Shown here: positions 219 through 49,554 of the stretch, in pieces
Layout: each line of letters starts with the position of its first letter
Numbering within the stretch: the stretch's first letter is position 1
Origin: Gemmatimonadota bacterium
Lineage (GTDB): Bacteria > ARS69
DNA: 64,000 nt
Reading direction: 5' to 3'
Assembly: GCA_030747075.1 (NCBI GenBank)
Contig: JASLLL010000006.1
Location: 1 to 64,000 of the forward strand
The notes under the pieces: model-generated
Told to the model about the DNA's origin: nothing
What the model saw: the letters and a program-made list of their open reading frames with translations, nothing else
Databases searched by the model: none
Made by a program: the position numbers and the translations under genes

Positions 219-277
219 TTGCCCGCCCGGGTAGCCGGGTGCGTCTGCACTTCTCGCAAATCGGGAGGTTTCAGAAC

Positions 278-820: not shown

Positions 821-859
821 TTTCGAAGGTCGGAAGGGTCCGGCCGGGAAGGGAAGAAC

Positions 860-3288: not shown

Positions 3289-3476
3289 CCCCGGCGCGGT
3301 TTTGGACCATCGATCCGTCCGACGCGTTCTCCCCGGAATGACCTGCCTCCCTGGAGTGAAACGCTGGCAGAAATGACACCTGCAAACAGAGCCCGGGCCG
3401 GTCGGCTTCAAGCCGGCTGCGGCACCGGTCGATACGGAAGAAGAGTTCCCGTCCCGTGTTGTCGTGGAGGAGTGCG

Positions 3477-3953
3477 ATGACGCGTGAGGAACGGAATGTC
3501 CTTCTGTTTCTGGTGGCGGGGGTCGTTCTCGGCTGTCTCGTTCCCGACGGTGGAGAGTGGGGCGTGTTCGCGCCACCGCAATCCGGGGAGGCGCGGGAAG
3601 AGGACGGGGTGGTCGTGCGCGACCTGTTCCCCATCGATGTGAACCGGGCCGACGCGGATCTCTTGGAACGGCTGCCCGGGATCGGACCGTCGCGGGCGCG
3701 GGCGATTGTGGCGTTGCGGGAAGAGCGCGGGGTGTTTGAGTCGCTCGCCGAACTCACGCGGATCCGGGGCATCGGCCCGCGGACGGTGGAAGGTCTGGAA
3801 GATCGTGCGGTTGCCGGAATGGCGGACGCGGACGGTACAGCGGAGGAGACGCAGCGTGGACACGAACCGCATCGAGACCCTTCTTCTGGAGCACGAGATC
3901 CTGGCTCCGGAGCAACTGGCGCAGGCCAGAACGCAGCAGAAATCCTCCGGTGA
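3477..3953 (+). CDS. comEA: ComEA-like helix-hairpin-helix DNA-binding protein
   Basis: 158 residues. A single N-terminal hydrophobic segment (about residues 8-22) anchors the protein facing outward. It is followed by tandem helix-hairpin-helix motifs (VNRADADLLERLPGIGPSRA, then LTRIRGIGPRTVEGL), the arrangement of the DNA receptor ComEA. The ATG at 3477 is preceded by GTGGAGGAG. The last 33 codons overlap the start of pilB by 98 bases, and this tail is low complexity (Gly/Ala/Ser/Asp), so the functional protein may end near residue 120. Next to pilus genes and with dprA in the same window, a role in DNA uptake is likely. Confidence 0.75.
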   Translation: MTREERNVLLFLVAGVVLGCLVPDGGEWGVFAPPQSGEAREEDGVVVRDLFPIDVNRADADLLERLPGIGPSRARAIVALREERGVFESLAELTRIRGIGPRTVEGLEDRAVAGMADADGTAEETQRGHEPHRDPSSGARDPGSGATGAGQNAAEILR

Positions 3954-5565: not shown

Positions 5566-5566
5566 C

Positions 5567-6667
5567 ATGGTGACCATGAAAGCGCTTCTGGAAGAGATGG
5601 TGCGCATGAAGGCGTCGGATCTCCACCTGACGGCCGGCGTCCCCGCGAGGTTCCGCGTGGACGGCGTTCTGGAGACGGCATCGGCGGGGGATGTGCTCAC
5701 GCCGGAAGTGACGCAGCGCCTGGCCTACAGCACCCTCACCGACGAGCAGAAGAAGCTCTTCGAGCGCACGCGGGAACTGGACTTCTCGTTTGGAGTGCAG
5801 GGGCTGGCCCGGTTCCGTGGAAACTGCTTCATCCAGCGCGGAGTGGTCACGATGGCCGTGCGGATGATTCCGTTCGAGGTGGCTCCGTTTGAGTCGCTGG
5901 GTCTTCCGCGCTCGGTGCTTTCGTTTGCCGGGCTGACTCGCGGGCTCGTCCTCGTGACCGGGCCGACAGGAAGCGGAAAGTCCACGACGCTCGCATCGCT
6001 CATCGACCGGATCAACGAAGAGCGCGCCGTCCACATCCTGACGCTGGAAGACCCCATCGAGTTCATGCACTCGCACAAGAAGGCCATCGTGAACCAGCGC
6101 GAAGTGGGGTCGGATACGGAGTCGTTCGGGTCGGCGCTGCGCCATGTTCTCCGGCAGGATCCGGATGTGATTCTGCTCGGCGAGATGCGCGACCGCGAGA
6201 CCATCGAGACAGCGCTCACCCTGGCCGAGACCGGGCACCTGGCATTCGCGACGCTCCACACGAACTCCGCAGTCGAGTCGATCAACCGGATTGTGGATGT
6301 CTTCCCCTCGGAGCAGCAGTCGCAGATTCTCGCGCAACTGGCGTTCGTGCTGCAGGGGGTGGTGACGCAACTGCTTCTCCCAAGGTCGGGACGCGCCGGT
6401 CGAGCCCTGGCCGCGGAGATCCTTGCGGTGACTCCCGGGATTCGCGCGCAGATCCGGGAAGGGAAGGTCCATCAGATCCACTCCATGATTCAGGCGGGGC
6501 AGAAGCACGGCATGGTGACGATGAACCAGAGCCTGGCGGCACTCGCGACTCGCCGCGAAGTCTCAGTGGAAGACGCGCTCCTGCGAAGTCCCGACAAGAA
6601 GGAGTTTGAGTCGCTGTTCGGGCGCAGAGTCCCGGAGCGCAGGCAAGCACAGGGGGTTCAGTCGTGA
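5567..6667 (+). CDS. pilT: Type IV pilus retraction ATPase PilT
   Basis: 366 residues. PAS-like N-terminal domain, then Walker A GPTGSGKSTT, Asp box and the His box ETGHLAFATLHTNSA. The C-terminal segment IRAQIREGK corresponds to the AIRNLIRE motif needed for retraction in PilT, and no metal knuckle is present. The ATG at 5567 is one base past the pilB stop with GGAGGGA 7 bases upstream; the ATG at 5576 is a weaker alternative. Confidence 0.94.
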   Translation: MVTMKALLEEMVRMKASDLHLTAGVPARFRVDGVLETASAGDVLTPEVTQRLAYSTLTDEQKKLFERTRELDFSFGVQGLARFRGNCFIQRGVVTMAVRMIPFEVAPFESLGLPRSVLSFAGLTRGLVLVTGPTGSGKSTTLASLIDRINEERAVHILTLEDPIEFMHSHKKAIVNQREVGSDTESFGSALRHVLRQDPDVILLGEMRDRETIETALTLAETGHLAFATLHTNSAVESINRIVDVFPSEQQSQILAQLAFVLQGVVTQLLLPRSGRAGRALAAEILAVTPGIRAQIREGKVHQIHSMIQAGQKHGMVTMNQSLAALATRREVSVEDALLRSPDKKEFESLFGRRVPERRQAQGVQS

Positions 6668-7875
6668 CGACCTGGGTTTGGCGAGGGCAGGCACCCGGCG
6701 GAGAGACGGTGACGGGAGAACTGGCGGCGGGGAACCGGGGCGAGCTGTTGGCGAATCTCCGCCGAAGGAAGATCGTCGTTCAATCGGTTCGTCCCAAGCC
6801 GAAGGAGATCCGCCTCAACCTGCCTTTCATGGACAAGATCACTACGCGCGACATGGCGGTCTTCACGCGACAGTTCGCGACCATGATCGATTCCGGACTT
6901 CCGCTCATTCAGTGTCTGGACATTCTCTCGCGGCAGTTGGGGAAGGGCCCGTTGCGCGGGATCACCAAACGCGTCATGCAGGATATCGAGGCGGGTTCCA
7001 CGCTCTCCGAAGCGCTGGCAAAGCACGACAAAGCGTTCGATGAACTCTTCGTGAGCATGGTCAGCGCGGGCGAAGCGGGCGGCGTACTGGACACGATCCT
7101 CCTCCGCCTCTCCGAGTACATCGAGAAGATCGACGCGCTGAAGCGAAAGGTCCGAAGCGCCATGACCTACCCGGTGGTCGTGATGGTGGTGGCGATGGTT
7201 GCCACCATGTTCATGCTCATCTTCATCATCCCGACCTTCGCGAGGATGTTCACGGACTTCGGCGCGGCACTCCCGACACCGACCCGGATCGTGCTGGGTA
7301 TGTCGGGGTTCGTGCGGGCGTGGTGGTGGGTGATGGTGGCCGGTGTCGCGGGCGGGCTCTTCACGCTTCGGAAGTGTTACGCCAATCCAAAGGGGCGCCG
7401 CACGCTGGACCGGTTTCTTCTGCGAGTGCCCGTCCTGGGAGATGTCATTCGCAAGGGCGCGGTCTCGCGCTTCACCCGGACGCTGGGAACGCTGATCTCC
7501 TCGGGTGTCCCCATCCTCGATGGCCTGGAAATCACAGCGCGGACGGCTGGAAACGCCGTGGTAAAGGATGCCGTCATGGATGCGCGAACCGCCATCCGCG
7601 AGGGCCAGACGATCGCTATGCCATTGCGGGAGTCCGGTGTCTTCCCGCCGATGGTGACGCAGATGATCGCCGTGGGAGAGGAGACCGGCGCGCTGGACGA
7701 TATGCTCGGGAAGATCGCGGACTTCTACGACGAAGAGGTGGACACCGCCGTCGACGGCCTCACTTCCATCATCGAACCGGTGATGATTGTCGTGATGGGG
7801 ACGATGGTGGGAGGAATGGTCATGTCCATGTACCTGCCCATCTTCAAGATGGTCAATGTCATCATGGCGCAGTAG
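6664..7875 (+). CDS. pilC: Type IV pilus inner-membrane platform protein PilC
   Basis: 403 residues with the duplicated GspF/PilC fold: two cytoplasmic helical repeats (about 70-195 and 270-395), each opening with the family pattern FTRQFATMIDSGLPL or FTRTLGTLISSGVPI. Transmembrane segments are near 170-195, 215-235 and at the C-terminus. It couples the PilB/PilT motors to the growing pilus base. The start is a GTG whose last bases form the TGA stop of pilT (GTGA). Confidence 0.94.
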   Translation: MTTWVWRGQAPGGETVTGELAAGNRGELLANLRRRKIVVQSVRPKPKEIRLNLPFMDKITTRDMAVFTRQFATMIDSGLPLIQCLDILSRQLGKGPLRGITKRVMQDIEAGSTLSEALAKHDKAFDELFVSMVSAGEAGGVLDTILLRLSEYIEKIDALKRKVRSAMTYPVVVMVVAMVATMFMLIFIIPTFARMFTDFGAALPTPTRIVLGMSGFVRAWWWVMVAGVAGGLFTLRKCYANPKGRRTLDRFLLRVPVLGDVIRKGAVSRFTRTLGTLISSGVPILDGLEITARTAGNAVVKDAVMDARTAIREGQTIAMPLRESGVFPPMVTQMIAVGEETGALDDMLGKIADFYDEEVDTAVDGLTSIIEPVMIVVMGTMVGGMVMSMYLPIFKMVNVIMAQ

Positions 7876-7883
7876 GGGACAGG

Positions 7884-9146
7884 ATGCACAGCCTTCACCA
7901 GGTCGCGGGGGCCATGTTCCTTCCGCTTTGCGGCGCGGCTTCGCTCGGAATGGTGCTCCTGATGGCGGTTCGGCGCGACCGCAACCGCCGGGAGCACGCC
8001 GCCGAAGACCTTGCGCGGATGGCATCATCCACCGATCGGATTCTGGAGAGCATGCCCGCGGCCCTTGTTCTGGCGTCCGCCACCGGGGAGATCACCCGCC
8101 TCAATCGGTCCGCGCTCGAAGTGCTCCAGATCGACGATCCGGGTGAGGTCACCGGCGGGGATCTGTCGGCCTTTCTGGGCTCGCTCGACCCGCGTCTCGT
8201 GGAAGCGCTCGACGATGCGCTGTCCGGTCGTCGCTGGGCGGTGCGGGAGGAGGTCGTCCTCGGGAAGGGGCGCGCGAAGAGGCCCGTGGGCGTTTCGATC
8301 ACTCCGCTGACCGGAGAGGGCGGCGTCCCGGAAGGCGTCATGACCTGCTTCACGGATCTCCAGGTGGTGCGAAATCTGGAGAGTCGGATTCGGCGCTCCG
8401 AGCAACTGGCTGCCCAGGGAGAACTGGCGGCGGGGATCGCGCACGAGATTCGCAACCCGCTGGCATCCATCTCCGGCGCCGTTCAGGTTCTCCGAGGAGA
8501 CGATTGCGTCGATGGCGACTCCCGCGAACTGATGGACCTGATCGTCGGGGAGTCGGAGCGGTTGAATCGACTCATCGAAGGATTCCTCAGCTACACGCGG
8601 GATCCCGGAACGCGCCGGGAACGCTGCGAACTCTCCGTTCTTGTCCGGGATGTCGTGCGTCTCCTTCGCCATGACCGCGGCCTCACCTTCGGCAAGACCG
8701 TGCTCATGGAGTTGCCCGAGGATGCGGGGGCGGTCATCGAGGCCGAGGACGAAGGCATGCGTCAGGTGGTCCACAACCTCGTGCGGAATGGTCTGGAGGC
8801 GATGGATCTGGGTGGCATCCTCCGGATCACGGCCGAAGAGTTGCCCGACGGGAATGTCGCGCTGGTGTTTCGGGACACGGGAGAGGGAATCCCGCCGCAC
8901 GAACTGGAAGAGATCTTCAAGCCGTTCCACACCACGCGCCCGGGCGGTACGGGGTTGGGCCTTTCCATTGCTTCGCGCATCGTGGAGGAGCACGGCGGGT
9001 CCATTCGTGTGAGAAGCACGCCCGGAATGGGCACGGCCATCACGGTGGAACTTCCCGTGGTTCCCGCGAATCGGCCTTCAGGAATGCGATCTGACGCGCC
9101 GAAGAGGAAGGAAGGCACCCCTTCCCGCAACGAGGTGAGCGCGTGA
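7884..9146 (+). CDS. pilS: Sensor histidine kinase PilS (PAS-HisKA-HATPase)
   Basis: 420 residues. One N-terminal membrane segment (about 8-29), a PAS domain (about 45-160), a HisKA helix pair with phospho-acceptor His187 in AAGIAHEIRNP, and a HATPase domain with NLVRNGLEAM, DTGEGIPPHE and GGTGLGLSI. It is followed at a GTGA overlap by the sigma-54 response regulator, the PilS-PilR arrangement that controls pilin transcription. Pseudomonas PilS has six membrane segments, whereas only one is visible here. The start at 7884 has GGGGACAGG just upstream. Confidence 0.88.
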   Translation: MHSLHQVAGAMFLPLCGAASLGMVLLMAVRRDRNRREHAAEDLARMASSTDRILESMPAALVLASATGEITRLNRSALEVLQIDDPGEVTGGDLSAFLGSLDPRLVEALDDALSGRRWAVREEVVLGKGRAKRPVGVSITPLTGEGGVPEGVMTCFTDLQVVRNLESRIRRSEQLAAQGELAAGIAHEIRNPLASISGAVQVLRGDDCVDGDSRELMDLIVGESERLNRLIEGFLSYTRDPGTRRERCELSVLVRDVVRLLRHDRGLTFGKTVLMELPEDAGAVIEAEDEGMRQVVHNLVRNGLEAMDLGGILRITAEELPDGNVALVFRDTGEGIPPHELEEIFKPFHTTRPGGTGLGLSIASRIVEEHGGSIRVRSTPGMGTAITVELPVVPANRPSGMRSDAPKRKEGTPSRNEVSA

Positions 9147-10522
9147 CGGATTCATCCCGGATTCTCATCGTGGATGATGAGAGTGGAATGTGTCGTTTCC
9201 TGTCCATCATGCTGGGCAGGGAGGGATACTCAGTGACGGTGGTTTCGAGCGGCACGGAAGCGCTCGAAGCGTTTCGAAACGATGTGTTTCATGCGGTCAT
9301 CACGGACATCAAGATGCCGGGGATGAGCGGGATCGAACTCCTTCGCGCAATCCGCGCTCTGGATCCGGTGGTTCCGGTGATCGTGATGACGGCGTTTGCT
9401 TCGCTGGATACGGCCATCGAGGCGGTGAATCAGGGCGCGTTCCACTACTTCATCAAGCAGGCGCGCAACGAGGAAATCAAGCTCGTCGTTCGTCGCGCAC
9501 TGGAGACCACGCGCCTTCGCCGGGAGAACCGTGTCCTGCTCGATGAGGTCCGGCAAAGCGCTCCCACTCGCAGGATCGTGGGGGAGAGCGAGTCGCTCCG
9601 CGGCGTCTTTGCGACCATTCGAAAGGTCGCGCCCACCGACTCCACCGTCTTGCTGTGCGGCGAGAGCGGCACCGGGAAAGAGCTCTTTGCACGGGAAATC
9701 CATGCGGCGTCCCGCAGACGGGAAGGGCCGTTTGTGTCGATCAACTGCGGTGCACTGCCCGAGGGCCTCCTGGAAAGCGAACTGTTCGGGCATGTGAAAG
9801 GCAGCTTCACCGGGGCCGTGCGCGACAAGGAGGGTTTGTTCAGCGTCGCGAGCGACGGGACATTCCTGCTCGACGAAGTGGGCGAGACTTCCCCCGCAAT
9901 CCAGGTCAAGCTGCTGCGCGTGCTGCAGGAACGCGAGATCGTGCCGGTCGGCGGGCACAAGCCCGTGAAAGTGAATGCGCGTCTGATCGCGGCCACGAAC
10001 GCGGATCTGGAGAAGGCGGTGGAGGCCGGGACCTTCCGCGCGGATCTCTTCTACCGGCTGCATGTGATCCCGGTCGTGCTTCCGCCGCTGCGTGAACGCG
10101 CGGATGACATCCCCCTTCTTGCCGTGCACTTCCTGAAGCGCCACTGTCGCATCTCCGACCGCTCAGGCATGGAGATCTCCGAGGCAGCGCTCGAAGTCCT
10201 TGCGGCCTACGACTGGCCGGGCAATGTCCGCGAACTGGAGAACATCATTGAGCGCTCGGTCATTCTGGAGGAGTCGGACACCGTGACGCCCGAATCACTT
10301 CCCGAGAAGATTCGGCAGGGCCCGTCCCGTTCCGGCGATCCCGCAGTGGGCGAATGTACGGGGACGCTGGAGAGCATCGAGCGGGCATACCTCGTCAAAG
10401 TGCTTCGGGAGACCGGCTGGAAGAAAAAGCGGGCCTCGTCGATTCTGGGGATCAACTCCTCTACGCTCTATCGAAAGATCCAGCGGTACGGGCTGGAGCA
10501 GACCGGGCCGACCGCAGACTGA
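9143..10522 (+). CDS. pilR: Sigma-54-dependent response regulator PilR
   Basis: 459 residues. Receiver domain with Asp11/Asp12, phospho-acceptor Asp55 in ITDIKMPG and Lys105. The AAA+ domain has Walker A GESGTGKE and the sigma-54 contact loop in its GSFTGA form. The C-terminus is a Fis-type helix-turn-helix (KKRASSILGINSSTLYRKIQ). It activates transcription from -24/-12 promoters, and a fitting site lies 237 bases downstream in front of the pilin gene. GTG start overlapping the pilS stop. Confidence 0.92.
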   Translation: MTDSSRILIVDDESGMCRFLSIMLGREGYSVTVVSSGTEALEAFRNDVFHAVITDIKMPGMSGIELLRAIRALDPVVPVIVMTAFASLDTAIEAVNQGAFHYFIKQARNEEIKLVVRRALETTRLRRENRVLLDEVRQSAPTRRIVGESESLRGVFATIRKVAPTDSTVLLCGESGTGKELFAREIHAASRRREGPFVSINCGALPEGLLESELFGHVKGSFTGAVRDKEGLFSVASDGTFLLDEVGETSPAIQVKLLRVLQEREIVPVGGHKPVKVNARLIAATNADLEKAVEAGTFRADLFYRLHVIPVVLPPLRERADDIPLLAVHFLKRHCRISDRSGMEISEAALEVLAAYDWPGNVRELENIIERSVILEESDTVTPESLPEKIRQGPSRSGDPAVGECTGTLESIERAYLVKVLRETGWKKKRASSILGINSSTLYRKIQRYGLEQTGPTAD

Positions 10523-10833
10523 CGCCCTGCCGGGGTCGCGCGTGTCCTGCAATGAACCCTCCAGAAGCGCCCCCATTTCGCCGATAAAGACCACGAAACC
10601 CCGGGTCGGATGCGAAAGGGGCTGATTGCAGATTGCGAATCGGCGTCGCATTCCGGGTCGCGGGGAGTGGCCGGCCGGAGGAAGACCTGTAGGATTGTCG
10701 TCATTCAACCGGCGTAATGACAACGGGTTGCACGCAACACTTCGAGGTCGGCTGACCTTGGCACGACCCATGCACACCGAAGGGGTCAGGGGAAGAAGAC
10801 GCCCAACACTGATCCCCGGAAAAGGAGAAACTG
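10523..10833 (+). other. 311-base pilin upstream region
   Basis: No coding sequence is seen. The region holds the sigma-54 promoter at 10759-10774 and, just upstream, a perfect dyad GTTGC-AC-GCAAC at 10727-10738 that could bind a regulator. The first 200 bases would be the place for PilR sites, but I see no repeated motif I would name. The pilin ribosome-binding site AAAGGAG is at 10821-10827. Confidence 0.6.
10759..10774 (+). promoter_or_regulatory. Sigma-54 promoter of the first pilin gene
   Basis: TGGCAC, five bases, then ATGCA. The invariant GG (10760-10761) and GC (10772-10773) are exactly 10 bases apart, as sigma-54 requires, and only the first base of the -12 box departs from the TTGCA consensus. 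It lies 59 bases ahead of the pilin start and directly behind the gene for a sigma-54 activator, so PilR control of this pilin is a strong inference. Confidence 0.8.
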
Positions 10834-11298
10834 ATGCTTCGAGGAACCCGCGGTTTCACACTGATCGAGCTCATGATCGTCGTGGTGATCATTGGCATCC
10901 TGGCCGCCATCGCGATTCCCAACTTCATGGGAATGACCAACCGGGCGAAGGTGGCGCAGGTGAAGTCCTCCATGCACACCTGCCAAGTGACGGTCGAAGA
11001 CTATGCGACACGCAACAACGGGATCTACCCGGCGGGCGCGGCCAGCACCACCGCCGAGGGCGGCCTGACCTTTGCCAGTCTCCTTCCGGGCGGTGCGGCG
11101 CCGGCGAACCCGTTCACGGGTGCGGCCACGACCATCGACTGGGGAGCGGCCCTCGGTACGGCTCCGGCCACCGATGCGGCGGGCGGCATTTCGATGAACA
11201 CGATCTCCACCCAGGCGAATGCGGTCGTCGACGCCTACGACATCACCGGCGAGGACGATGGCGGCAACCTGCTGTCTCTGGTTCTCACAAACCAGTAG
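10834..11298 (+). CDS. pilA: Type IV pilin (major pilin candidate)
   Basis: 154 residues. A short 7-residue leader ends in Gly, then FTLIELMIVVVIIGILAAIA: the type III prepilin signal with Glu5 and the N-terminal hydrophobic helix. The mature protein has about 147 residues. The globular part (YPAGAASTTAEGG and PANPFTG) resembles the small GspG/PilA pilins of deltaproteobacteria and lacks the disulphide loop of Neisseria-type pilins. It is the first gene after the sigma-54 promoter, hence the likely major subunit. PilD in this locus would process it. Confidence 0.9.
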   Translation: MLRGTRGFTLIELMIVVVIIGILAAIAIPNFMGMTNRAKVAQVKSSMHTCQVTVEDYATRNNGIYPAGAASTTAEGGLTFASLLPGGAAPANPFTGAATTIDWGAALGTAPATDAAGGISMNTISTQANAVVDAYDITGEDDGGNLLSLVLTNQ

Positions 11299-11336
11299 TC
11301 ATCCTGACGGTCGTTGCGGCCTGACGAGTGGCCGGG

Positions 11337-11364
11337 GGAAGGTGGGGCGTTTGCTCCGCCTTCC
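11337..11364 (+). terminator. Strong hairpin between the two pilin genes
   Basis: An 11-pair stem (two G-T pairs) with a 6-base loop, running from GGAAGGTGGGG to CTCCGCCTTCC, 38 bases after the first pilin stop. There is no T-run behind it, so it may be a partial terminator or an mRNA 3'-end stabiliser that makes the first pilin more abundant than the second. Confidence 0.45.
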
Positions 11365-11408
11365 GTCGCGTCCGGTACGGAATGAACTCAACCGAGGAGC
11401 GCACTGCC

Positions 11409-11873
11409 ATGAGAGGAACGAACCGGGGCTTCACGCTGGTGGAGCTTCTGATCGTGGTCGTGATTCTCGGAATCCTGGTGGCGATTGCCGTCCCCAACTA
11501 CGGGGGGATTCGGGATCGCGCCCGGGTTTCCAGCGTGAAGAGCAACATGCACACGATCCAGATCGCCACGGAGGACTTCGCCACACGCAACAACGGCGTC
11601 TACCCGGCTACGGCCGCATCGACGACAAGCGAAGGCGGCATGGTCCTTCTGCAGCTCCTTCCCTCGGGAGTGCCCCCCACCAACCCGTTTACAGATTCCC
11701 CGACGGTGATCGGCTGGGGAGTCGTTCAGGGCGCGGCCTATTCGGGGAGCGATCCAGGCGGGGGGATCGAGATCAATATCTGGTCGAGCGGCGGAGGGGC
11801 CGCGGACACCTACGAGATCACGGGCGCAGACGAGGCGGGAGCGGTCCTTCCTCTCGTTCTCGGGAACAGCTGA
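11409..11873 (+). CDS. Second type IV pilin, paralogue of the upstream gene
   Basis: 154 residues, exactly the length of the neighbouring pilin. Prepilin leader MRGTNRG, then FTLVELLIVVVILGILVAIA with Glu5. The middle (TRNNGVYPATAASTTSEGG, PTNPFTD) is clearly homologous to the first pilin, while the C-terminal third differs. The ATG at 11409 is supported by GAGGAG about 10 bases upstream and by the leader pattern. No second -24/-12 promoter precedes it, so expression probably depends on read-through from the first pilin. It could be a minor or alternative major subunit. Confidence 0.88.
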   Translation: MRGTNRGFTLVELLIVVVILGILVAIAVPNYGGIRDRARVSSVKSNMHTIQIATEDFATRNNGVYPATAASTTSEGGMVLLQLLPSGVPPTNPFTDSPTVIGWGVVQGAAYSGSDPGGGIEINIWSSGGGAADTYEITGADEAGAVLPLVLGNS

Positions 11874-11880
11874 CCGGCCG

Positions 11881-11929
11881 AGCCCTCTCCAGACACGGCC
11901 CCGGGCGGCCGATGATTCGTGAGAGGGCT
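11881..11929 (+). other. Long inverted repeat between pilin 2 and the ABC genes
   Basis: AGCCCTCTC at 11881-11889 is the exact complement of GAGAGGGCT at 11921-11929. The 31-base interval contains a smaller GGCC/GGCC stem. It starts 8 bases after the second pilin stop, without a T-run. It may be a transcript-end or processing structure separating pilin from transporter expression. Confidence 0.4.
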
Positions 11930-11946
11930 TCCACCGGAGGAACCTG

Positions 11947-12966
11947 ATGCCCGTGCTTCGCCCCATGGAACTGAACGGTCTCTGCCGAAGCTTCCGATCC
12001 GGAATCCTCGGCCGTAGATCGGTCGTGCTCGACGGCCTCGACCTCCGCGTGGAGGAAGGGGAGATCTTCGGGTATCTGGGCGCCAACGGCGCGGGCAAGA
12101 CCACCACTATCCGCATTCTGCTGGGACTCATCCGGCCCGACTCCGGTAACGGGACGCTCCTCGGGCATCCCCTCGGGAGTCTCGCGGGGCGACGCGGGCT
12201 GGGGTTTCTCTCCGACTCTCCCGACTCCCCCGAGCGGCTGCTTGTTCGCGAGCATCTGAAGTTCTGCGGCCGCCTGCACGCGCTTTCGGGGCACTCCCTG
12301 ACCCGGCGCGTGGAAGAATCGCTCGACTCCATGGAAGTGCGTGCCGCTGATCGCGACCGGTCTCTTGGCGATCTTTCGCGCGGAACTCTCCAGCGCGTGC
12401 GCTTCGCCGCGGCCACACTGCACCGGCCCCGGCTTCTGATTCTCGACGAACCGATGTCGGGTCTGGATCCCATGGGACGCCGACTGGTTCGCGACACGCT
12501 GGTCTTGCTTCGCGATGGTGGCACCACGGTGTTCCTGTCGTCCCATGTGCTCTCCGATGTCGAGAGCATGGCCGACCGCGTGGGGATTCTCCGCGACGGG
12601 CATCTCGTTGCCTGTGGGCGGGCCCGGGAGATCGGCGCGGCGGACTGCGAAGGCGTGGACATTGTGTTCCATGCTCCCGAAGGCGTGTCGCTGGCCGGAT
12701 TCGCGGGCGTTCTCGCCGGGTTCCGGCGGGAGGCTCGCGGATGGACGGGGTGCGCACCCGATCGGGAGACGGCACGAGGAGTCGTGGCGGCCGTTCTGGA
12801 CGCGGGGTGCGAACTGGTGGAGTTCGTCCCCTCGGCGGGGGCGCTGGAGGAACGATTCCTGCGCGAAGTCTGCCAGTCGAAAGCGAGCGGCGTGTCGCCT
12901 TTGCGCAAGCAGGCCGAGCTCTTCGGTGTGGGCGCACTTCCCGAAAACGAGGGGGCCTCCCGATGA
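11947..12966 (+). CDS. pilH: ABC transporter ATP-binding protein (PilH-like)
   Basis: 339 residues. One ABC domain in the first 230 residues: Walker A GANGAGKTTT, signature LSRGTLQR, Walker B LLILDEPMSGLDP. A C-terminal domain of about 100 residues is typical of ABC-2 exporters. Myxococcus and Geobacter pilus loci carry an ABC ATPase and permease (PilH, PilI) in this same place between pilA and pilD, so the assignment rests on position plus family. Substrate unknown. ATG at 11947 with GGAGG 6 bases upstream. Confidence 0.8.
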   Translation: MPVLRPMELNGLCRSFRSGILGRRSVVLDGLDLRVEEGEIFGYLGANGAGKTTTIRILLGLIRPDSGNGTLLGHPLGSLAGRRGLGFLSDSPDSPERLLVREHLKFCGRLHALSGHSLTRRVEESLDSMEVRAADRDRSLGDLSRGTLQRVRFAAATLHRPRLLILDEPMSGLDPMGRRLVRDTLVLLRDGGTTVFLSSHVLSDVESMADRVGILRDGHLVACGRAREIGAADCEGVDIVFHAPEGVSLAGFAGVLAGFRREARGWTGCAPDRETARGVVAAVLDAGCELVEFVPSAGALEERFLREVCQSKASGVSPLRKQAELFGVGALPENEGASR

Positions 12967-41023: not shown

Positions 41024-42265
41024 ATGAAAGGCGAAAGACGGGTAGTCGTGACCGGAGTCGGGGCGGTGACCCCGCTCGGGAACACGGCGCAGGAGTCCTG
41101 GGAGAACCTTCTGAACGGCGTCAGCGGTGCGGGGCCGATCACCAGCTTCGACGCATCGGGGTTTGGTACCCGATTCGCCGCGGAGGTTCGGGACTTCGAC
41201 CCGCTGAGCTTCATCAGCCGGAAGGAAGTTCGCAGGATGGACCGCTTCACGCAGTTCGCCGTGGCGGCTTCCCAGATGGCCATGGATGACTCCGGTCTGG
41301 AAATCGGAGAAGAGAACGCTGCTCGCGTAGGGGTGATGGTGGGGTCCGGCATCGGCGGATTCCTGACCTTCGAGGAGCAGCATTCCGTCCTTACGGAACG
41401 GGGTCCGGGCCGGGTGAGCCCCTTCTTCGTTCCGATGATGATCATCAACATGGGCACCGGCATGGTCAGCATCCGGTTCGGGGCGAAGGGGCCGAGCGGC
41501 TCTCCCGTCACTGCGTGTGCGTCCGGTGCCAACGCGGTCGGGGACGCGTTCCGTGTGATCGCCCGGGGCGATGCGGACGCGATGATCGCGGGGGGCGCAG
41601 AGGCTCCCGTTACTCCCCTGTCCGTGGCGGGGTTCGGCTCTATGAAGGCTCTGTCCACGCGCAACGACGACCCCCAGGTCGCCAGCCGCCCGTTTGATGC
41701 TCAGCGGGACGGTTTTGTGATGGGGGAAGGCTCCGGGGTAGTCATCCTGGAGGAACTGGAACACGCGCAGGCGCGTGGCGCTTCCATCTATTGCGAGATT
41801 GTGGGGTACGGCTGTACGGCCGATGCCCACCACATGACCGCACCCTCCCCGGGCGGGGAAGGCGCGGCGCGGGCGATGGCTCGGGCCATGGAGGATGCCG
41901 GGATGAATTCCGGGGAAGTGGACTACATCAACGCCCACGGAACCTCCACCTCGCTGAACGATCGTCTGGAGACCGAAGCCATCCGGACGGTGTTGGGCGA
42001 AAGTGCATCCGGCGTCGCCGTGAGTTCCACCAAATCCATGACGGGACATCTGCTGGGCGCCGCGGGCGGCGTGGAGTTCATGATACTCTGCCTCGCTCAT
42101 CGCCACGGCCGCATCCCGCCGACCATCAACTATGCCCACCCGGATCCCGACTGTGATCTGGATTGCGTTCCGAACGAGGCGCGCTCCGCAGATGTCGGGG
42201 CCGCGCTCTCCAACTCGCTGGGCTTTGGTGGACACAATGTGACACTGGCAACCAGGAAACTATGA
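41024..42265 (+). CDS. fabF: Beta-ketoacyl-ACP synthase II
   Basis: 413 residues. Catalytic Cys165 in TACASGAN, His in NAHGTST and the Lys/His pair in [27 protein letters not shown] is the usual start. Elongates acyl-ACP chains. AAGGGGATCGA precedes the ATG; its stop overlaps the rnc start (ATGA). Confidence 0.95.
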
Positions 42266-43773
42266 AAAAACAAGATTCCATGTTCCGCCGCGGCTGGTCC
42301 GTCGTCGGAAAGCTCGTTTCAGGAAGCAGGTCGGGCCCGTCTCCGGAGAGGGTCCGGCAACTGAAGAAGCTCCAGCGAAGGATCGGCGTTCACTTCAACG
42401 ATCTGTCGCTTCTGGAGCAGGCGCTGACACATCGCTCCTATTCCCACATCACCTCCGGCTCCCGAAACGACTCCAATGAGCGAATGGAGTTTCTCGGAGA
42501 TTCCGTGCTGGGGCTGTCCACGAGTCAGTTCCTCTACACGCGTTTCCCGGAGCGGAGTGAAGGTGCGCTGTCGAAGATGAAATCGCTGCTCGTCAGCCGC
42601 AAAGTGCTGTCCAGCGTGAGCCGGGAGGTCGGCCTCGGGGAGTTTCTTCTTCTGTCGGAGGAAGAGGCGGACACCGGAGGGCGCGACCGCACTTCTATCA
42701 TTGCGGACTCGTTCGAGGGCGTGATCGGGGCGATCTATCTCGATCAGGGTTATCGCGCGGCCAACCACTTCGTGCGAGCGTTTCTCCTGGCACAGATCGA
42801 CGAGATCTGCGAGGACGAGGCGCACATCAACTACAAGTCGCTCCTTCAGGAGCATGTGCAGGGGCACCACCTGCCGCATCCCGTGTATCGGGTTCGTGCC
42901 GAGAAGGGACCCGAGCACAAGAAGGAATTTGCGGTGGAAGTTGTGATTCGAAACGAAGTCTGGGGAAAGGGTCGCGGTCAGAACAAGAAGGACGCGGAAC
43001 AGGCGGCCGCACGGGCCGCGCTGGAAACCCACCTTCAGAAGAGCGGTTCCCGAAGGGGCGGACGACGAGCGCGCGGCAGACGCACTCGCGGCGGGGAGGG
43101 TTCGAGGAGTGGACCCGAGAGGGCGCAGAGCTCACGCGGAGAGCGAACGGTTTCCGCGGAGTCCAACCAAGGGCGGCGAGCGCCGTCCGACTCCAGGCCG
43201 TCGGACAGGTCGCGTGGCGGCACCCGTCGGGATGAGTCCCGCCGATCCGGCGGCGACGGGAGCAGGTCCCCCCGGGGGAGGCGCAGGTCGCAGGAGCCCA
43301 TCCGGGCGAATGGGGAGCGGGAGGATCGTGACCTTACGGGGCGCGGTCCTGCGGAAGGTTCTGCGCACGGAGTTCACGCTTCGCGGGAGAGACTGCGCAA
43401 GTCGCGGCAGGAAGAGTTGCGCCTGGAAGAGGAAGAGTCGCGTGCATTGAAGGAGAAGCGGGCCGCTGCGAGGAAGCGTCCGTCGCGCACGCGCATGTCC
43501 GAACCGACCCGCGAAGAGGAACCCCGGACGCCCTCTTCCGCCGAAGAGCCTGAGAGGACATCGGACCGCGGCCGCCGGACTTCCCGTCGTGAAGAAGCCC
43601 CCGCGCCTCGGGAGCGGGAGTCTCGCGTTCGATCTGTGGACAAGCCGGAAGCGTCCTCGCCCGCCGATCCCCCGGTGGAGCCGAAGGCCCCGGCGTCGCC
43701 CGCGCCGGAAGAGGCGAAGAAAGAGCCCGTGGCATTTGTGCCGCGGAAGAAGAAGGCTGCCCGCCGCCGGTAG
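42262..43773 (+). CDS. rnc: Ribonuclease III with a long charged C-terminal tail
   Basis: 503 residues, about twice the usual length. RNase III domain (about 35-175) with signature [12 protein letters not shown] (Glu76, Asp80) and the second acidic pair in [10 protein letters not shown] (Asp149, Glu152). Double-stranded RNA-binding domain at about 188-258. Residues 261-503 are a low-complexity tail rich in Arg, Ser, Glu and Pro, first RGGRR/RS-like, then mixed-charge with a predicted helix ([19 protein letters not shown]), ending in KKKAARRR. The tail stays in frame with no stop, so it looks genuine. ATGA overlap with fabF. Confidence 0.92.
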
Positions 43774-43805: not shown

Positions 43806-45941
43806 TCAGCCGGTGGTTCTCCGTCGGAGAAGCACCGCCCCCGCCACGAGGGCGACGGGTACGCCGAGCCACCACGCTCCCCTCCGGCCCGGTCGGGGGG
43901 GAGGCGCGGCTCCCGGAGGAAGATCCCGCCCGCGCACGACAAATGCCGCCCATGTGAACGGGTCCGCCAGCGACTTCCGCCGTGACTCCGCGCACTGCCT
44001 CCGAGTTTCCCGCAACGCCTCGGACGGGCGCACGCCGGTGCGCAGGTTCCGGTGGAACCGTTCCATGAACCGAGTCGTGGACTGATCGTCCACTTTCCAG
44101 AGAGCCCCCACGACCGTCTCTGCACCGGCCATCAGGAACGCGGTGCCGATGTCCCCGACGGCCCGGCGCCCGGGGACATCGGCGAGGAGAGTCTCGCATC
44201 CCGACAGGATCACCAGGCGCGGCGGATGCGGGAGCGCGGCTGCTTCAGCGGGCGTCAGGACCCCGTCGTCGTCGGCACCGGGAGCCAGCAGGAGACCCGC
44301 AGCCCCTCCGGAGGAACCCGTGTGTGCGGCGATGTGCAGTATTCGTGCGGCGGGCTTCGCCGAGAGGCGCGCCTCGGTCGCCGCCTCTCCGCAGAGGGCC
44401 TCCGCGTCGGGGGATTCGGCTGCAATGCGCGCGCCTTCTCTTTCCGCGCCGACGAGTTGCGTGGCAGGGATCGCTCCGGCGGGAGGGGACGGAGCGGCGA
44501 GCACCAATAGATCCAGGAGCACCGAGTCATCCGCCGGGCGCTCGGTGACGGTCGCTGAGGTGATGCGGATCACCGAACACCGGATCCCCAGGGGCTCCGC
44601 GAGCCCGCCGATCGGGAGGGCCGCCAGCGCGAGCCCTTCCAGAATCCCGTCCGGCGCGGCAAGAATGCGCTCCGGAAGTAGTGCTTCGGCGAAGGGAAGG
44701 AGACGCTTCGAGAGAATCTGGCCGACGCGGTGAGCGTCCTCCGATCGCGCCGGGTCCGCGAGACACGCGCGGTAGAGCAGGATCCACTCGCGAAGTTCTT
44801 CCGGTGCGCCTGCGGAAAACGGGCGGACGGACCCCGAAGGCCCTTCGCGCAGGAACCCGAGGACGCGGGCGCCGCCCCAGTGCCATGCGACGAGCGCCTC
44901 CCCCGGGCGAAGCGCCGGCGGAGGGAAGCCCAGCGTCAGGGCCAGTGCGTCTTCGGCGAAACCGGACCCGGCGGGCGAGTGAAGGGCGAGGTCGAGGAGG
45001 GTCTCCAGATAGGGACGGGTCCGGCGCTGCCGAAGAGCTTGCTCCCCGGCGTCGGGAGCGTCCGCAATCCACGACCGGGCGAACTCCATGGCGCGGTGCG
45101 CGGCCGCCCACGCGCGTCCCGGCTCCCCCGCGAGCTGCGCGGTCAGCGCTTCCCGCTGGTGGACATCGGCGCGGTCGGCGGCGGTTCGCGCCAGCGTGTG
45201 CGCAGCGGCCAGACTTCGTTCCGCGTCCGCCCGGCGGCCTGATGCGGCCAGCGCCTCCACCCGGGCCAGTTCGATCTGGAGTGCGCCGCCCGCGGGGTCC
45301 GCCGAGGGAAGCTCCTTTGCGCGGTCGAGCCACGGCAGCGCGTCCCCGGGGCGGTCGTCGTCCAGCGCCAGAAGGGCCTCGACCAGCGCGAGTTCCGCTT
45401 CGGGCATCCCGCGTGGGGCCTCCGCCTCGATGTGGCTCCACGCGCGGCGGAGTGCCTCCCTCGCGCCGGGTGCGTCTCCTGTCAGGCGGCATGCATCGGC
45501 CCGGATCCACAGGTACCAGACCTCCCGCCGTGCGTTTTCGGCGCGATCCTCCGGCGTGTCACCCAGGTCGCGCGCGCGGTCGGCCGCTCGCAATGCGACG
45601 GCAGCGGCGCTCTCCCAGATGCCGTCGTGCAGAAGCCAGTATGCCCATCGTCCAAGAGCAGTGGGGGCATCGGGGTGGTTCGCAGGCAGGCCCGCAGCCT
45701 GTCGGGCCGCGCGGCGAAGAAGAGGCTCCGCCCGCGCCGGAAACCCGCGCGACTGGAGGTCGAGCGCTTCATCGGAGAGGCGAAGCACATCCGACGCGGG
45801 CGCCGGATTTTCCGCCTCCGCGGGGAGTGCGATCAGCGCGAGGGCGACCAGCGGAAGGAGGACGGCGCCGACGACGCATGCGAGCCATCGGCCGTGCGCA
45901 CATGAATCACCCAGGTGATGCCGCTTCCGCTTTCGAGCCAT
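43806..45941 (-). CDS. Membrane-anchored TPR-CHAT caspase-like protease
   Basis: 711 residues. A signal peptide of about 43 residues (basic start MARKRKR, hydrophobic core, AEA cleavage site), TPR-like helical repeats (about 50-290), then a CHAT domain at about 400-660. The catalytic dyad is intact: His540 in HIAAH and Cys582 in LSGCETL, 42 residues apart. A C-terminal membrane segment (about 688-705) ends in RRRTTG. This predicts a periplasm-facing protease held by its C-terminus. The start has CGGAG upstream and lies 109 bases inside the anti-sigma-like gene. In type III-E CRISPR systems TPR-CHAT cuts an anti-sigma protein; here the same partners occur without CRISPR genes. Confidence 0.82.
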   Translation of the reverse strand: MARKRKRHHLGDSCAHGRWLACVVGAVLLPLVALALIALPAEAENPAPASDVLRLSDEALDLQSRGFPARAEPLLRRAARQAAGLPANHPDAPTALGRWAYWLLHDGIWESAAAVALRAADRARDLGDTPEDRAENARREVWYLWIRADACRLTGDAPGAREALRRAWSHIEAEAPRGMPEAELALVEALLALDDDRPGDALPWLDRAKELPSADPAGGALQIELARVEALAASGRRADAERSLAAAHTLARTAADRADVHQREALTAQLAGEPGRAWAAAHRAMEFARSWIADAPDAGEQALRQRRTRPYLETLLDLALHSPAGSGFAEDALALTLGFPPPALRPGEALVAWHWGGARVLGFLREGPSGSVRPFSAGAPEELREWILLYRACLADPARSEDAHRVGQILSKRLLPFAEALLPERILAAPDGILEGLALAALPIGGLAEPLGIRCSVIRITSATVTERPADDSVLLDLLVLAAPSPPAGAIPATQLVGAEREGARIAAESPDAEALCGEAATEARLSAKPAARILHIAAHTGSSGGAAGLLLAPGADDDGVLTPAEAAALPHPPRLVILSGCETLLADVPGRRAVGDIGTAFLMAGAETVVGALWKVDDQSTTRFMERFHRNLRTGVRPSEALRETRRQCAESRRKSLADPFTWAAFVVRGRDLPPGAAPPPRPGRRGAWWLGVPVALVAGAVLLRRRTTG

Positions 45942-46630
45942 CCAAGGGACTCCGGGTCGATGAGGAGTGTGGTTCCGCCGGTGCGTCCCGCCTCCAGGAT
46001 CTTCCCGGCTTTCAGGTCGTGAAGCACCACGCGATACTCCACCGCGCCCGCGACCGGTTCCCAGGACAGCGTCACCGGCCCGGAGGCCAATCCGCCGTCT
46101 TCCGGAGTGTGCAGGACGACAGCGCTCGTGCCCGAACGGGCGGCGCGGTAGGCGGGTGTCTCGTGTTCCAGCGGTGCGGATCGCACGAAGAAGAGCACCA
46201 AGGCGGCCGTCGCGGCGACTCCCGCGACCGTCCATCCGGGCGACAGAGACATCATCTCGCGGAGCGATGTCGACCAGGAGCGTCGCGCCGGGGAATCCGC
46301 CACGGCGGGAACTCTCTCGACGGCCTCGCGGAGAAGTGCCGCGGGCGCATCGTGTGCGTCCACAGAGCCGCCCGTCTCGCGAAGCGCCGCCACCAGTTCC
46401 CCGAACCTCCGTGCGAGGTCCGGATCCGACGCCAGGAGCGTCCGGGCAGCTTCCGCTTCTTTGCCGGATGGGGTGCCGTCCAGCAGTCCGAGGACCGCTT
46501 CCGGAAGATCTGCGCCCTCCGTGAACGGGTCCGCAGAGCCCCCCCGGCCCCAATCGGTCAGGATCAGCGCTTCCTCTTCGAGATCTCGAAAGAGGGCCTT
46601 CCCGGGTGGCTGGTTCCTGTCGTGCGTCAT
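45833..46630 (-). CDS. Single-pass membrane anti-sigma-like protein
   Basis: 265 residues. The N-terminal 130 are soluble and helical, without the HxxxCxxC zinc motif of ZAS anti-sigma factors; one membrane segment lies at about 132-149. The outer 115 residues look like one fibronectin-III-type beta-sandwich (the GPVTLSWEPVAGAVEYRVVL pattern). It overlaps the ECF sigma gene by ATGA, the standard order for a cognate sigma regulator, and the CHAT gene by 109 bases. Anti-sigma function is inferred from topology and context, not from a recognised motif. Confidence 0.7.
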   Translation of the reverse strand: MTHDRNQPPGKALFRDLEEEALILTDWGRGGSADPFTEGADLPEAVLGLLDGTPSGKEAEAARTLLASDPDLARRFGELVAALRETGGSVDAHDAPAALLREAVERVPAVADSPARRSWSTSLREMMSLSPGWTVAGVAATAALVLFFVRSAPLEHETPAYRAARSGTSAVVLHTPEDGGLASGPVTLSWEPVAGAVEYRVVLHDLKAGKILEAGRTGGTTLLIDPESLGWLESGSGITWVIHVRTADGSHASSAPSSFRWSPSR

Positions 46631-47400
46631 GGCTGGTGGTCCTTTCCCTGTTCTCCATGATCAGACACCTCTTCACCCGCGTTTTGAATACCGTTTGCCG
46701 CAAAAAGCGCCTCCCGGAACTGGTCGGCCGCTCCGTGAAACGCGCTTTCGTCCCATTCCGGGGAGGAACGCGCGGTCGTCAAGGCCCGGCACCGTCCCAG
46801 CGCCTTCCGGAGCCGGTAGGCGGCGTCGTTGGTGTCTCGTGCTCCGAGGACTTCAGCGAGCTCCCGGAGCTTCAGCCCTCCGGCGAAGCGCAGAGTGAGG
46901 ATTCGGCGGTCCTCCTCCCCCAACGCCTCCAGCGCCTCACGCGCTGCTTTCCGCCCGACTCCGTGATTCCAGTCGGGGAGGGGGCTCTTCCCCGGATCCA
47001 ATGAGTCTCCCTTGGGTGCTTCCACGGAAAGGAGAGCCTCCCGCTCCAGAATGTCCTTGCCGCCTCTCTCCACGCCACGCCGTCTGAAGAGCCGAAACCG
47101 CTCCGTCTGGATCACCCGGTAGAGGTAGGTGCGAAACTCGCATTGCCCTCGAAAGCCCCGAATGAGCGCGAAGTCCCGGGCCTCCAGCCGAACGAAGACG
47201 CGTCGGTAGAGTTCTGCGGCGAACTCCTCCGGGTCGTCCAGACCGCCGGAAAACTTCAGCGAAACCGAATAGACGAATCGCGAGTATTTCTCGACGAAGA
47301 GACGCCAGCCGCGCGGCGCGTCGGAACCGAGGAGGTCCACGACTTCTCCGATCGCCACGCCGTCATGGCGGGTTTCCATGCCTTCCAAGCTTTTCAGCAT
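46627..47400 (-). CDS. ECF-type RNA polymerase sigma factor
   Basis: 257 residues. Region 2 spans about 30-112 (LFVEKYSRFVYSVSLKF, then FRGQCEFRTYLYRVIQTERFR for promoter melting). Region 4 is at about 152-208 (LGEEDRRILTLRFAGGLKLRELAEVLG). About 50 extra residues follow region 4. The start is uncertain: ATG at 47400 is used, with ATG 47379 and TTG 47454 possible; none has a clear ribosome-binding site. First gene of the sigma/anti-sigma/CHAT operon. Confidence 0.85.
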   Translation of the reverse strand: MLKSLEGMETRHDGVAIGEVVDLLGSDAPRGWRLFVEKYSRFVYSVSLKFSGGLDDPEEFAAELYRRVFVRLEARDFALIRGFRGQCEFRTYLYRVIQTERFRLFRRRGVERGGKDILEREALLSVEAPKGDSLDPGKSPLPDWNHGVGRKAAREALEALGEEDRRILTLRFAGGLKLRELAEVLGARDTNDAAYRLRKALGRCRALTTARSSPEWDESAFHGAADQFREALFAANGIQNAGEEVSDHGEQGKDHQP

Positions 47401-47544
47401 CCCGGACAGGGGGCGATGGTTCGACACGAACTCCTCCGGACCCGTGAGGCTCAAAGGCTAGCACGGAGGCAGGTGCCGCGCACGCATCTCCGTGGGTTCC
47501 TTCAAGTCCACGCGCGGTTCCGCCGATTATTGATCAGGATTGGA

Positions 47545-47676: not shown

Positions 47677-49554
47677 ATGGCCGTGCTGGACGACCGCCTG
47701 TGCGTTCGCTCGGCGAACCGCGCGATGGCGTGCCTCCTGGGATTCGACGAGCCGAATCAGGCGCGGGGCGCATCGCTGGCCGAGCATCCGCTCATCGACA
47801 TCTTGGTGGATGACGGGAGTGACCGTACGGTAGGGGCGGTGCTCACGGATCTGCTCGACCAGGGAGTCGGGTCGGTGGAAGTGGCCGCGCCTGCGGAGGG
47901 CGGTCCCCGGGTTCGTATCAGGGCCGCGGCGTGGGACACCGAGGACCCGGCCTACCGGCGGATTCTCCTCTGGGTCGCGGAAGTCCCGCTGAAGGAACCG
48001 GTTCCCGAGGCTTCCATTGGGGAGGAGACGGCTTCCCGCGCAAAGGAAGGCACGCCCCCCCCGGGACAGGGTAGGATGGGGCGGTCCTCGAAAGAGGAGG
48101 TCGCTCCCGTGCAGGACAGCTTGATTGAAGCGGACGCTCCCGCCATCCGGGTGGTTCTTCTGGGTGCCGGTGACAACGAGATTCCCGCGCTCCGGTTGCT
48201 CTACCGGGTTCGCCGCATGGCCATCGCCATGGTCTTTGACCCCGACGCGGAGGCTCCCGGGCTTTCGCTGGCGCAGGATCTGGGCATTCCCGCGATCTCC
48301 GGAAACCTCTCCGTGACGCTGGAGACCCCGCCGGATGCGGTGGTGCTGGCACGCGACGGGTTGGAGGGTTCTCTTGACTCGCTCGGGCTGAGCGCGGTGC
48401 CCCGTGTCCGTCGCGACGACCTGGAGGAGTTCCTCGTGGAACCGGACCCCTTCCTCGACCGCACCTGCGCCGCGCCGGAGGTGCTGGTGGAGTCGCCGCC
48501 ACAGGAACTGGCTGCGGAGGACCCCTTGCCTGCCGCACCCGGGGAACCCGCCGCGGAGGAACCTCCATCCGGGGAGCAGCCCGCGAAAGGCCCGGCTCCC
48601 ATGGACGAAGTCGAACGACTCGAGGCGGCGGCGGAGCTCTTGTCGGATCTTGCCCGGCTGGGCGGGCAGATTGTCGACATGGGCATCGAGCGGATCGGGG
48701 CCTCTTCCGGGAGCCTCATGCTTTTCGACGAGGAAGGGGAAGCGCTTCGTGTGGTGGCGTCGCGAGGATTGCCGCCGACGGTCGTTCAGGAATCCCGGAG
48801 GCTTCGAGGCGAAGGGATCGCCGGAAGGGTGGCGGATCGGGGGGAGCCACTTCTTCTCACCGGGCAGGTCGCGGACGCGGCGTTCGATCTGGACCCCGAC
48901 CGGCCGACCATTCCCTCTTCCGTGTGTGTCCCTGTTCGAACGGCCACCGGGATACTGGGTGTTCTCAACTTCCGCTCCTCACCTCTTGCGCCGGATTTGG
49001 ACCGTGGCGAACTCGAAGAAGCTGCCGCGCTGGGCCGCCGGGCCGGGCCGCTTCTGGAACGCGCGCTGTTGCTGGAGCGCGCGGAGAGGGGAACCCGGGA
49101 GCATTCGCTGGAGGCGGACCTGGAGGCGATTGCCGCGTCGGGTGAGGGGCTGGCTCTCCGGCTGGAGCGGATGGCCGAGCGGTTTGCGTCCGGGCTCGGT
49201 ACGCAGTCGTGCGCGATCTACTCGCTGGACCCTTCGGGTGACCGGCTTGTTCTGCGGGCGGCGGCCGGGATTTCGGCGGTTCCCGAGGGATCCGTGTCGG
49301 CTCCGGTCGGAACGGGGCTGGTGGGGTGGGCGGCGGCGGAGGATCACGCCATCGTGCTGGCTCCCGCCGCGACCGGGGGAGGTCCGGCTCCGTTCAGTGC
49401 GGCCGCGCCACTTCGACATGACGGTCGGGTGGTTGGCGTGGTCTCGGTTGAAGGAACGGCCGTCGACACCTTCGCGGACGAGTCCCTTCAGCTTCTGGAG
49501 AGCGCGGGCACGATTCCCGGAAGGTGCATCGCTTCGAGCGACTCCCGTTCTTGA
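47677..49554 (+). CDS. PAS/Rossmann/GAF/GAF signalling-type protein without output domain
   Basis: 625 residues from the first in-frame ATG. Residues 1-105 are a PAS-like domain cut at its start. Residues 155-245 form a Rossmann-like unit with VVLLGAGDNE and NAD/TrkA-N style spacing. A Pro/Glu-rich linker follows, then two GAF domains (about 310-465 and 480-615), the first with a GIAGRVADRGEPLL block. No kinase, cyclase, HTH or other effector is seen. The reading frame stays open and coding-like upstream to 47554 (WEEGLAYLLAFSEKLLDLAPDG), completing the PAS domain, so the true start is probably upstream at a non-standard codon. Confidence 0.7.
   Translation: MAVLDDRLCVRSANRAMACLLGFDEPNQARGASLAEHPLIDILVDDGSDRTVGAVLTDLLDQGVGSVEVAAPAEGGPRVRIRAAAWDTEDPAYRRILLWVAEVPLKEPVPEASIGEETASRAKEGTPPPGQGRMGRSSKEEVAPVQDSLIEADAPAIRVVLLGAGDNEIPALRLLYRVRRMAIAMVFDPDAEAPGLSLAQDLGIPAISGNLSVTLETPPDAVVLARDGLEGSLDSLGLSAVPRVRRDDLEEFLVEPDPFLDRTCAAPEVLVESPPQELAAEDPLPAAPGEPAAEEPPSGEQPAKGPAPMDEVERLEAAAELLSDLARLGGQIVDMGIERIGASSGSLMLFDEEGEALRVVASRGLPPTVVQESRRLRGEGIAGRVADRGEPLLLTGQVADAAFDLDPDRPTIPSSVCVPVRTATGILGVLNFRSSPLAPDLDRGELEEAAALGRRAGPLLERALLLERAERGTREHSLEADLEAIAASGEGLALRLERMAERFASGLGTQSCAIYSLDPSGDRLVLRAAAGISAVPEGSVSAPVGTGLVGWAAAEDHAIVLAPAATGGGPAPFSAAAPLRHDGRVVGVVSVEGTAVDTFADESLQLLESAGTIPGRCIASSDSRS

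Follow-up and report, generated by a model that had tools for sequence, protein, structure and literature searches.

CHAT-linked sigma switches and the Gemmatimonadota operon

A CHAT-linked switch of an extracytoplasmic function (ECF) sigma factor is already known outside the type III-E CRISPR systems, since the anti-sigma factor DdvA of Myxococcus xanthus carries an extracytoplasmic body of tetratricopeptide repeats (TPRs) and a CHAT domain. According to PMC12288465, DdvA is the transmembrane anti-sigma factor of the ECF sigma factor DdvS (PDB entries 8rot, 8rw5, and 8rlz), and the pair controls a defense island with a cyclic oligonucleotide-based antiphage signaling system (CBASS) and a type III-B CRISPR-Cas system. 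The subject of this analysis is a three-gene operon in the window, a stretch of 64,000 nucleotides from a Gemmatimonadota bacterium (contig JASLLL010000006.1 of GenBank assembly GCA_030747075.1, positions 1 to 64,000). On its minus strand, from position 47400 to 43806, three co-oriented and overlapping genes follow each other; the first encodes an ECF sigma factor, the second a membrane protein with a single pass that resembles an anti-sigma factor, and the third a TPR-CHAT protein. The primary work on DdvS and DdvA is reportedly that of Bernal-Bernal et al. of 2018 and 2024, to which PMC12288465 refers.

Like DdvS/DdvA, the window system combines an ECF sigma factor, an anti-sigma protein with one membrane helix, and a TPR-CHAT body that is predicted to be extracytoplasmic. 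However, DdvA unites all parts in one polypeptide, whereas in the window two genes are used and the CHAT protein is a separate, apparently exported product. DdvA has a zinc-finger anti-sigma domain (HxxxCxxC), whereas the window protein has no cysteines and contains its own fibronectin type III-like (FN3-like) domain. Being split and devoid of zinc, it is not DdvA proper. No description of the split exported form was found in the literature searched, which excluded the supplements of the ECF classification.

The output arm of the type III-E Craspase comprises Csx29, Csx30, and CASP-sigma (PMC10028731). Here, too, a TPR-CHAT protease with a similar CHAT fold is linked to an ECF sigma factor and a candidate inhibitor. 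However, the Craspase arm is cytoplasmic, is triggered by RNA, and requires Cas7-11 with CRISPR RNA, whereas the CHAT protein of the window is predicted to be on the envelope side. A previous interpretation of the window, made without database searches and referred to here as the sequence-only reading, had called the operon a counterpart of the Craspase arm, with no CRISPR, gRAMP, or Csx30 gene nearby. The comparison holds for a possible mode of action but not for membership. The CHAT protein scores 18.4 bits against the Csx29 model NF041237 (cutoff, 300 bits) and is not a member of this family, and the membrane protein (P0002) has no match to the Csx30 model. Neither the window nor the 20 kb that follow it contain CRISPR-like repeats. 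Cas1 is absent from the five genomes, all from one family, that represent the phylum here (G000 being the window genome), and gRAMP/Cas7-11 itself was not searched for.

Proteolytic control has also been proposed for ECF54, a group of ECF sigma genes with conserved CHAT and subtilase neighbors (PMC8999054, citing Casas-Pastor 2021 and Huang 2015). ECF54 is proposed to do without an anti-sigma factor, in a context with a subtilase and a carboxypeptidase, whereas the window operon has an anti-sigma protein and no adjacent subtilase. A CHAT-plus-subtilase context is seen elsewhere in the same genome, at G000:C2. This second module (L038, positions 5481-11153) consists of a sigma factor, a zinc anti-sigma protein without a transmembrane (TM) segment, an unexported CHAT protein, and a downstream subtilase (S8). 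Its layout, which resembles the published ECF54 context, is repeated in L044 (S8 identified by Pfam) and L048 (by sequence).

In regulated proteolysis of the RseA/DegS/RseP type, a membrane anti-sigma factor with an outer domain receives its first cut from a DegS-like serine protease. The window operon shares with it the membrane anti-sigma protein with an outer domain, and the window genome encodes a site-2 (M50) protease, but the candidate for the first cut is a CHAT cysteine protease. Finally, ECF sigma genes are found near the EACC2/caspase systems (PMC8195603), in which, as in the window, caspase-fold genes, an ECF sigma gene, and a TPR protein share one neighborhood. These systems differ from the window operon in the protease family and layout, with an EACC2 domain and a TPR protein of the DUF1822 type.

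Sigma-CHAT modules in other genomes

The adjacency of ECF sigma and CHAT genes exceeds chance in two independent samples. The CHAT domain (Pfam ID PF12770) is present in 44 of 145 genomes searched, mostly one per phylum, and 20 of the 60 loci taken outside the phylum of the window have an ECF sigma gene within 1.5 kb of the CHAT gene. In this one-per-phylum sample, the density of sigma genes reaches 12.3 per 100 kb at such close range, versus ~0.4 further out; in a second, named sample of 80 CHAT loci, the respective values are 6.4 and ~1 per 100 kb. An anti-sigma-like gene usually lies between the two or, in Bacteroidota, is convergent to the CHAT gene. The linkage of all three genes, for which the sequence-only reading had recommended a search, is widespread. 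Examples come from Acidobacteriota (L124, L161, and L167), Saprospiraceae (L126, L172, and L189), Dokdonia pacifica (L195), Aureibaculum flavum (L162), and Agaribacillus aureus (L164). Extra sampling of the phylum of G121 yielded two genomes only.

At two loci, L077 and L115, a single protein encoded next to a sigma gene combines a zf-HC2 domain (25.8 and 26.2 bits, respectively; cutoff, 22.2), a TM segment, TPRs, and a CHAT domain (206 and 63 bits). The L115 protein is a full-length homolog of Myxococcus DdvA (PDB 8rot; E = 3e-134). Foldseek searches of the PDB with the model of the window CHAT protein retrieve the Craspase TPR-CHAT chains and DdvA with similar E-values (6.8e-13 for DdvA); the TMq scores are 0.46 to 0.47 for DdvA, with 19 to 20% identity, and 0.34 to 0.41 for the Craspase chains, with ~14% identity.

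The predicted topologies of the anti-sigma and CHAT proteins agree in all 36 two-gene systems compared: 24 combine a membrane anti-sigma protein with an exported CHAT protein, 12 combine a soluble one with an unexported CHAT protein, and none is mixed. Two ambiguous loci, L155 and L088, were omitted from this comparison, and L154 was rejected as a mixed exception after inspection revealed a weak TM segment. The base rate of export-type N termini is 79 in 113 (~70%) among CHAT proteins without a nearby sigma gene. In line with the sequence-only reading, the CHAT protein and the outer domain of the window anti-sigma protein are predicted to share a compartment.

Some modules depart from the common layout. 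The window genome contains an ECF sigma gene followed directly by a gene for an exported TPR-CHAT protein, with no anti-sigma gene in between (G000:C44; L036, positions 251-4158). In G002, another genome of the phylum sample, two complete modules of sigma factor, membrane zinc anti-sigma protein, and exported CHAT protein are arranged in tandem (G002:C253; L050, positions 1746-12432). The CHAT protein of a sigma/anti-sigma operon in L095 (positions 7387-10611, minus strand) carries a class III nucleotidyl cyclase domain (PF00211, 77.8 bits) at its N terminus and TPRs at its C terminus. The membrane anti-sigma protein of L161 (positions 5975-7147) has an outer domain that matches DUF928 (28.4 bits; cutoff, 26). 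Judging by gene layout, no obvious partners of the DUF928 type are found beside cyanobacterial CHAT genes in nine loci, to which the DUF928 model itself was not applied.

Proteins of the window operon

The sigma gene (positions 46627..47400, minus strand, as are all features in this section) encodes 257 amino acids (aa), with a longer version possible from a start at 47454. Its assignment to the ECF group by the sequence-only reading is borne out by matches above the cutoffs to TIGR02937 (55.1 bits; cutoff, 42.9) and Sigma70_r4_2 (27.2 bits; cutoff, 25.7), the match to region 2 being below threshold. The four other genomes that represent the phylum contain no ortholog of this sigma factor. Its stop codon overlaps the start of the next gene in a 4-bp ATGA junction (46627..46630).

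The membrane protein (45833..46630; 265 aa) lacks a zinc motif, since it contains no cysteines, and has a single TM helix by hydropathy (residues ~131-149; 46184..46240). The beta-sandwich described in the sequence-only reading is modeled with confidence (residues ~175-265; 45836..46108; pLDDT ~87-92) and matches FN3 folds in Foldseek searches. It is related to the outer domains of the proteins from L070, L063, and L124 (29.5, 17.7, and 9.1 bits, respectively). The predicted cytoplasmic anti-sigma helices (residues ~41-106; 46313..46510) correspond to model helices at residues 44-106 of moderate confidence. Only the sandwich part of the AlphaFold model is confident, the N-terminal helices having pLDDT values of ~67-79 or lower. 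The matches of this protein to NF052375 (E = 7.8e-6; 26 bits, cutoff 100) and RskA_N (E = 0.029) are below threshold. A search for related loci with exact peptide patterns of the membrane protein alone returned no relatives because this protein evolves too fast.

The CHAT gene (43806..45941) overlaps the preceding gene by 109 bp. Its likely start is the ATG at 45941, with GGAG ~8 nucleotides upstream; the product is therefore 711 aa long, and the numbering agrees exactly with the catalytic dyad named in the sequence-only reading, His540 (44322-44324) and Cys582 (44196-44198). This dyad is aligned and intact in the window protein and in the 18 other CHAT proteins of the phylum that were aligned with it (19/19). 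The CHAT domain itself (43929..44723) matches PF12770 with 147 bits (cutoff, 24). The description of the remainder as TPRs finds no support in Pfam, but the model, which matches the folds of TPR proteins, points to a TPR-like helical repeat region (residues 48-337; 44931..45800). The AlphaFold model consists of a body of helical repeats plus CHAT, with helices at both ends. The N terminus (45813..45941) resembles a signal peptide, with the positively charged start MARKRKRHHLGDSCAHGR, a hydrophobic stretch, and AEA, and the C terminus has a predicted membrane helix (residues 686-710; 43812..43886) followed by RRR. As the sequence-only reading proposed, these features suggest that the CHAT protein is exported and membrane anchored.

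Possible roles of the CHAT protein and the related locus in G002

The interpretation favored here, with about even chances of being right, is that the operon encodes an ECF switch that faces the envelope and corresponds to DdvS/DdvA divided over separate genes, with the CHAT protein acting on the outer half of the anti-sigma protein. The membrane protein would hold the sigma factor inactive through its cytoplasmic helices. Comparative evidence suggests that the outer FN3-like domain adjoins the TPR-CHAT protein, which would be anchored on the same membrane face, and is engaged by it. Ligand binding or damage sensing by the TPR part might then cause CHAT to cut or reshape this outer half, after which intramembrane proteolysis by the M50 enzyme and cytoplasmic degradation, as in the RseA paradigm, would free the sigma factor. 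Throughout this scheme, CHAT cleavage of the anti-sigma protein is putative. In its favor are the overlapping genes and the intact dyad, the concentration of sigma genes beside CHAT genes, the agreement of topologies, the two fusions with the DdvA homology of L115, the slightly better fold match to DdvA than to Craspase, the joint loss in G002 described below, and the presence of an M50 protease.

The locus of G002 (L035) that occupies the same genomic place, flanked by rnc/fab genes on one side and, on the other, by a GAF-domain gene with gap-pgk behind it, bears on this interpretation. It encodes a CHAT ortholog (42 to 43% identity) with an intact dyad and the same N- and C-terminal hydrophobic segments. 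The locus also encodes a 169-aa protein that corresponds to the window membrane protein reduced to its first ~16 residues, TM segment, and FN3-like domain, with an in-frame gap in place of the anti-sigma helices. Both genes are open and overlap. There is no sigma gene, but a 32-residue stretch directly upstream matches the C-terminal tail of the window sigma factor and, like the window gene, runs into an ATGA junction at its end. The score of this match (62) is reached by none of 2,000 shuffles and none of 594 control pieces. The sigma factor and the anti-sigma helices have been lost together, and the outer domain and CHAT have been retained together, which splits the operon into two functional pairs. 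An assembly artifact is unlikely because both the synteny around the locus and the remnant of the sigma tail are preserved. The sequence-only reading had proposed conservation of gene order as a test, and the outcome is mixed: the module recurs broadly, but this locus lacks the sigma factor and the anti-sigma domain. In G003 and G004 the contigs end at the orthologous spot; the G002 locus is the only one of its kind seen.

Several observations weigh against the favored interpretation. The CHAT/outer-domain pair persists without a sigma factor in G002 and must therefore have another use; freeing the sigma factor is not its sole role. The anti-sigma domain of the window protein is inferred from position, helices, and subthreshold matches. 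The topology calls were made by hydropathy and by eye, and the best CHAT tree has four changes of topology label, of which one is forced by well-supported branches; the approximately unbiased test does not reject that the soluble type arose only once (P = 0.228). With so few independent changes, the topology match is not meant as a test of significance; it is consistent and suggestive but does not count as statistically independent evidence. The lead of DdvA over Craspase in TM-score is small, with both below 0.5. Lastly, the shared ECF promoter motif that the sequence-only reading had suggested looking for was not found: in the regions preceding 27 sigma genes, GGAAC, TGAAC, and GAACC do not occur above the level of shuffled sequences.

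Of the alternatives, the one that survives best, although it appears unlikely, is that CHAT is an output of the switch. The operon would be autoregulated by its own sigma factor, the outer domain would sense alone, and CHAT would be a coexpressed envelope effector that cuts other proteins. The persistence of CHAT and the outer domain in G002, the occurrence of sigma-CHAT pairs without an anti-sigma gene, such as G000:C44, and the majority of CHAT genes, which have no sigma gene nearby, all favor this explanation. However, it leaves unexplained the anti-sigma-CHAT fusions and the consistent match of compartments, and the lack of a shared promoter motif speaks against it as well. Slightly less probable still is that CHAT serves as a noncutting sensor or scaffold, with the TPR-CHAT body binding the outer domain and altering the conformation of the anti-sigma protein in the manner of a receptor. 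In the DdvA-like fusions, TPR-CHAT is indeed the extracytoplasmic part of the anti-sigma factor itself. However, the window protein, its G002 ortholog, and every one of the 19 aligned CHAT proteins have retained the His/Cys dyad, for which a pure scaffold would have no need. An improbable alternative is that the outer domain serves chiefly to bind or inhibit CHAT, with the sigma factor only reporting the state of the complex and the protease having an independent envelope job. The joint loss of the sigma factor and the anti-sigma helices in G002, where the genes for the short membrane protein and CHAT stay open and overlapping, favors this explanation; against it, this is a single locus, with contig breaks in G003 and G004.

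What the sequence-only reading observed is confirmed and fits a broader pattern than it had known. Its interpretation is partly supported: it was right in spirit in proposing a CRISPR-free, CHAT-linked ECF switch, its key step is putative, and DdvA had partly anticipated it. The window operon looks like one of a broader and little-studied set of switches that are linked to proteases and operate without CRISPR. A more general proposal, tentative and less probable than the switch itself, is that the caspase-like CHAT proteases are a general class of ECF sigma controllers across many phyla, in membrane and matching cytoplasmic as well as split and fused (DdvA) forms, and that the Craspase arm is a CRISPR-captured case of an older, RNA-independent switch. 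If CHAT does cut the anti-sigma protein, a caspase-like cysteine protease would make the first cut in an envelope sigma cascade, a step carried out by serine proteases in the textbook cases. Such a mechanism would unite DdvA, Craspase, and the ECF54-type neighborhoods, would hint at the origin of the type III-E output arm, and would provide many uncharacterized bacterial TPR-CHAT proteins with a testable substrate, the neighboring anti-sigma protein.

Ribonuclease III (window positions 42163-43773; L035 positions 10671-12596) has a very long, low-complexity C-terminal tail rich in Arg, Ser, Glu, and Pro in this lineage. The adjacent GAF-domain protein (window positions 47677-49554) is 625 aa long as called from the ATG at 47677, and its counterpart in G002 (L035 positions 3514-7395) has 1,293 aa and includes PAS and receiver domains.

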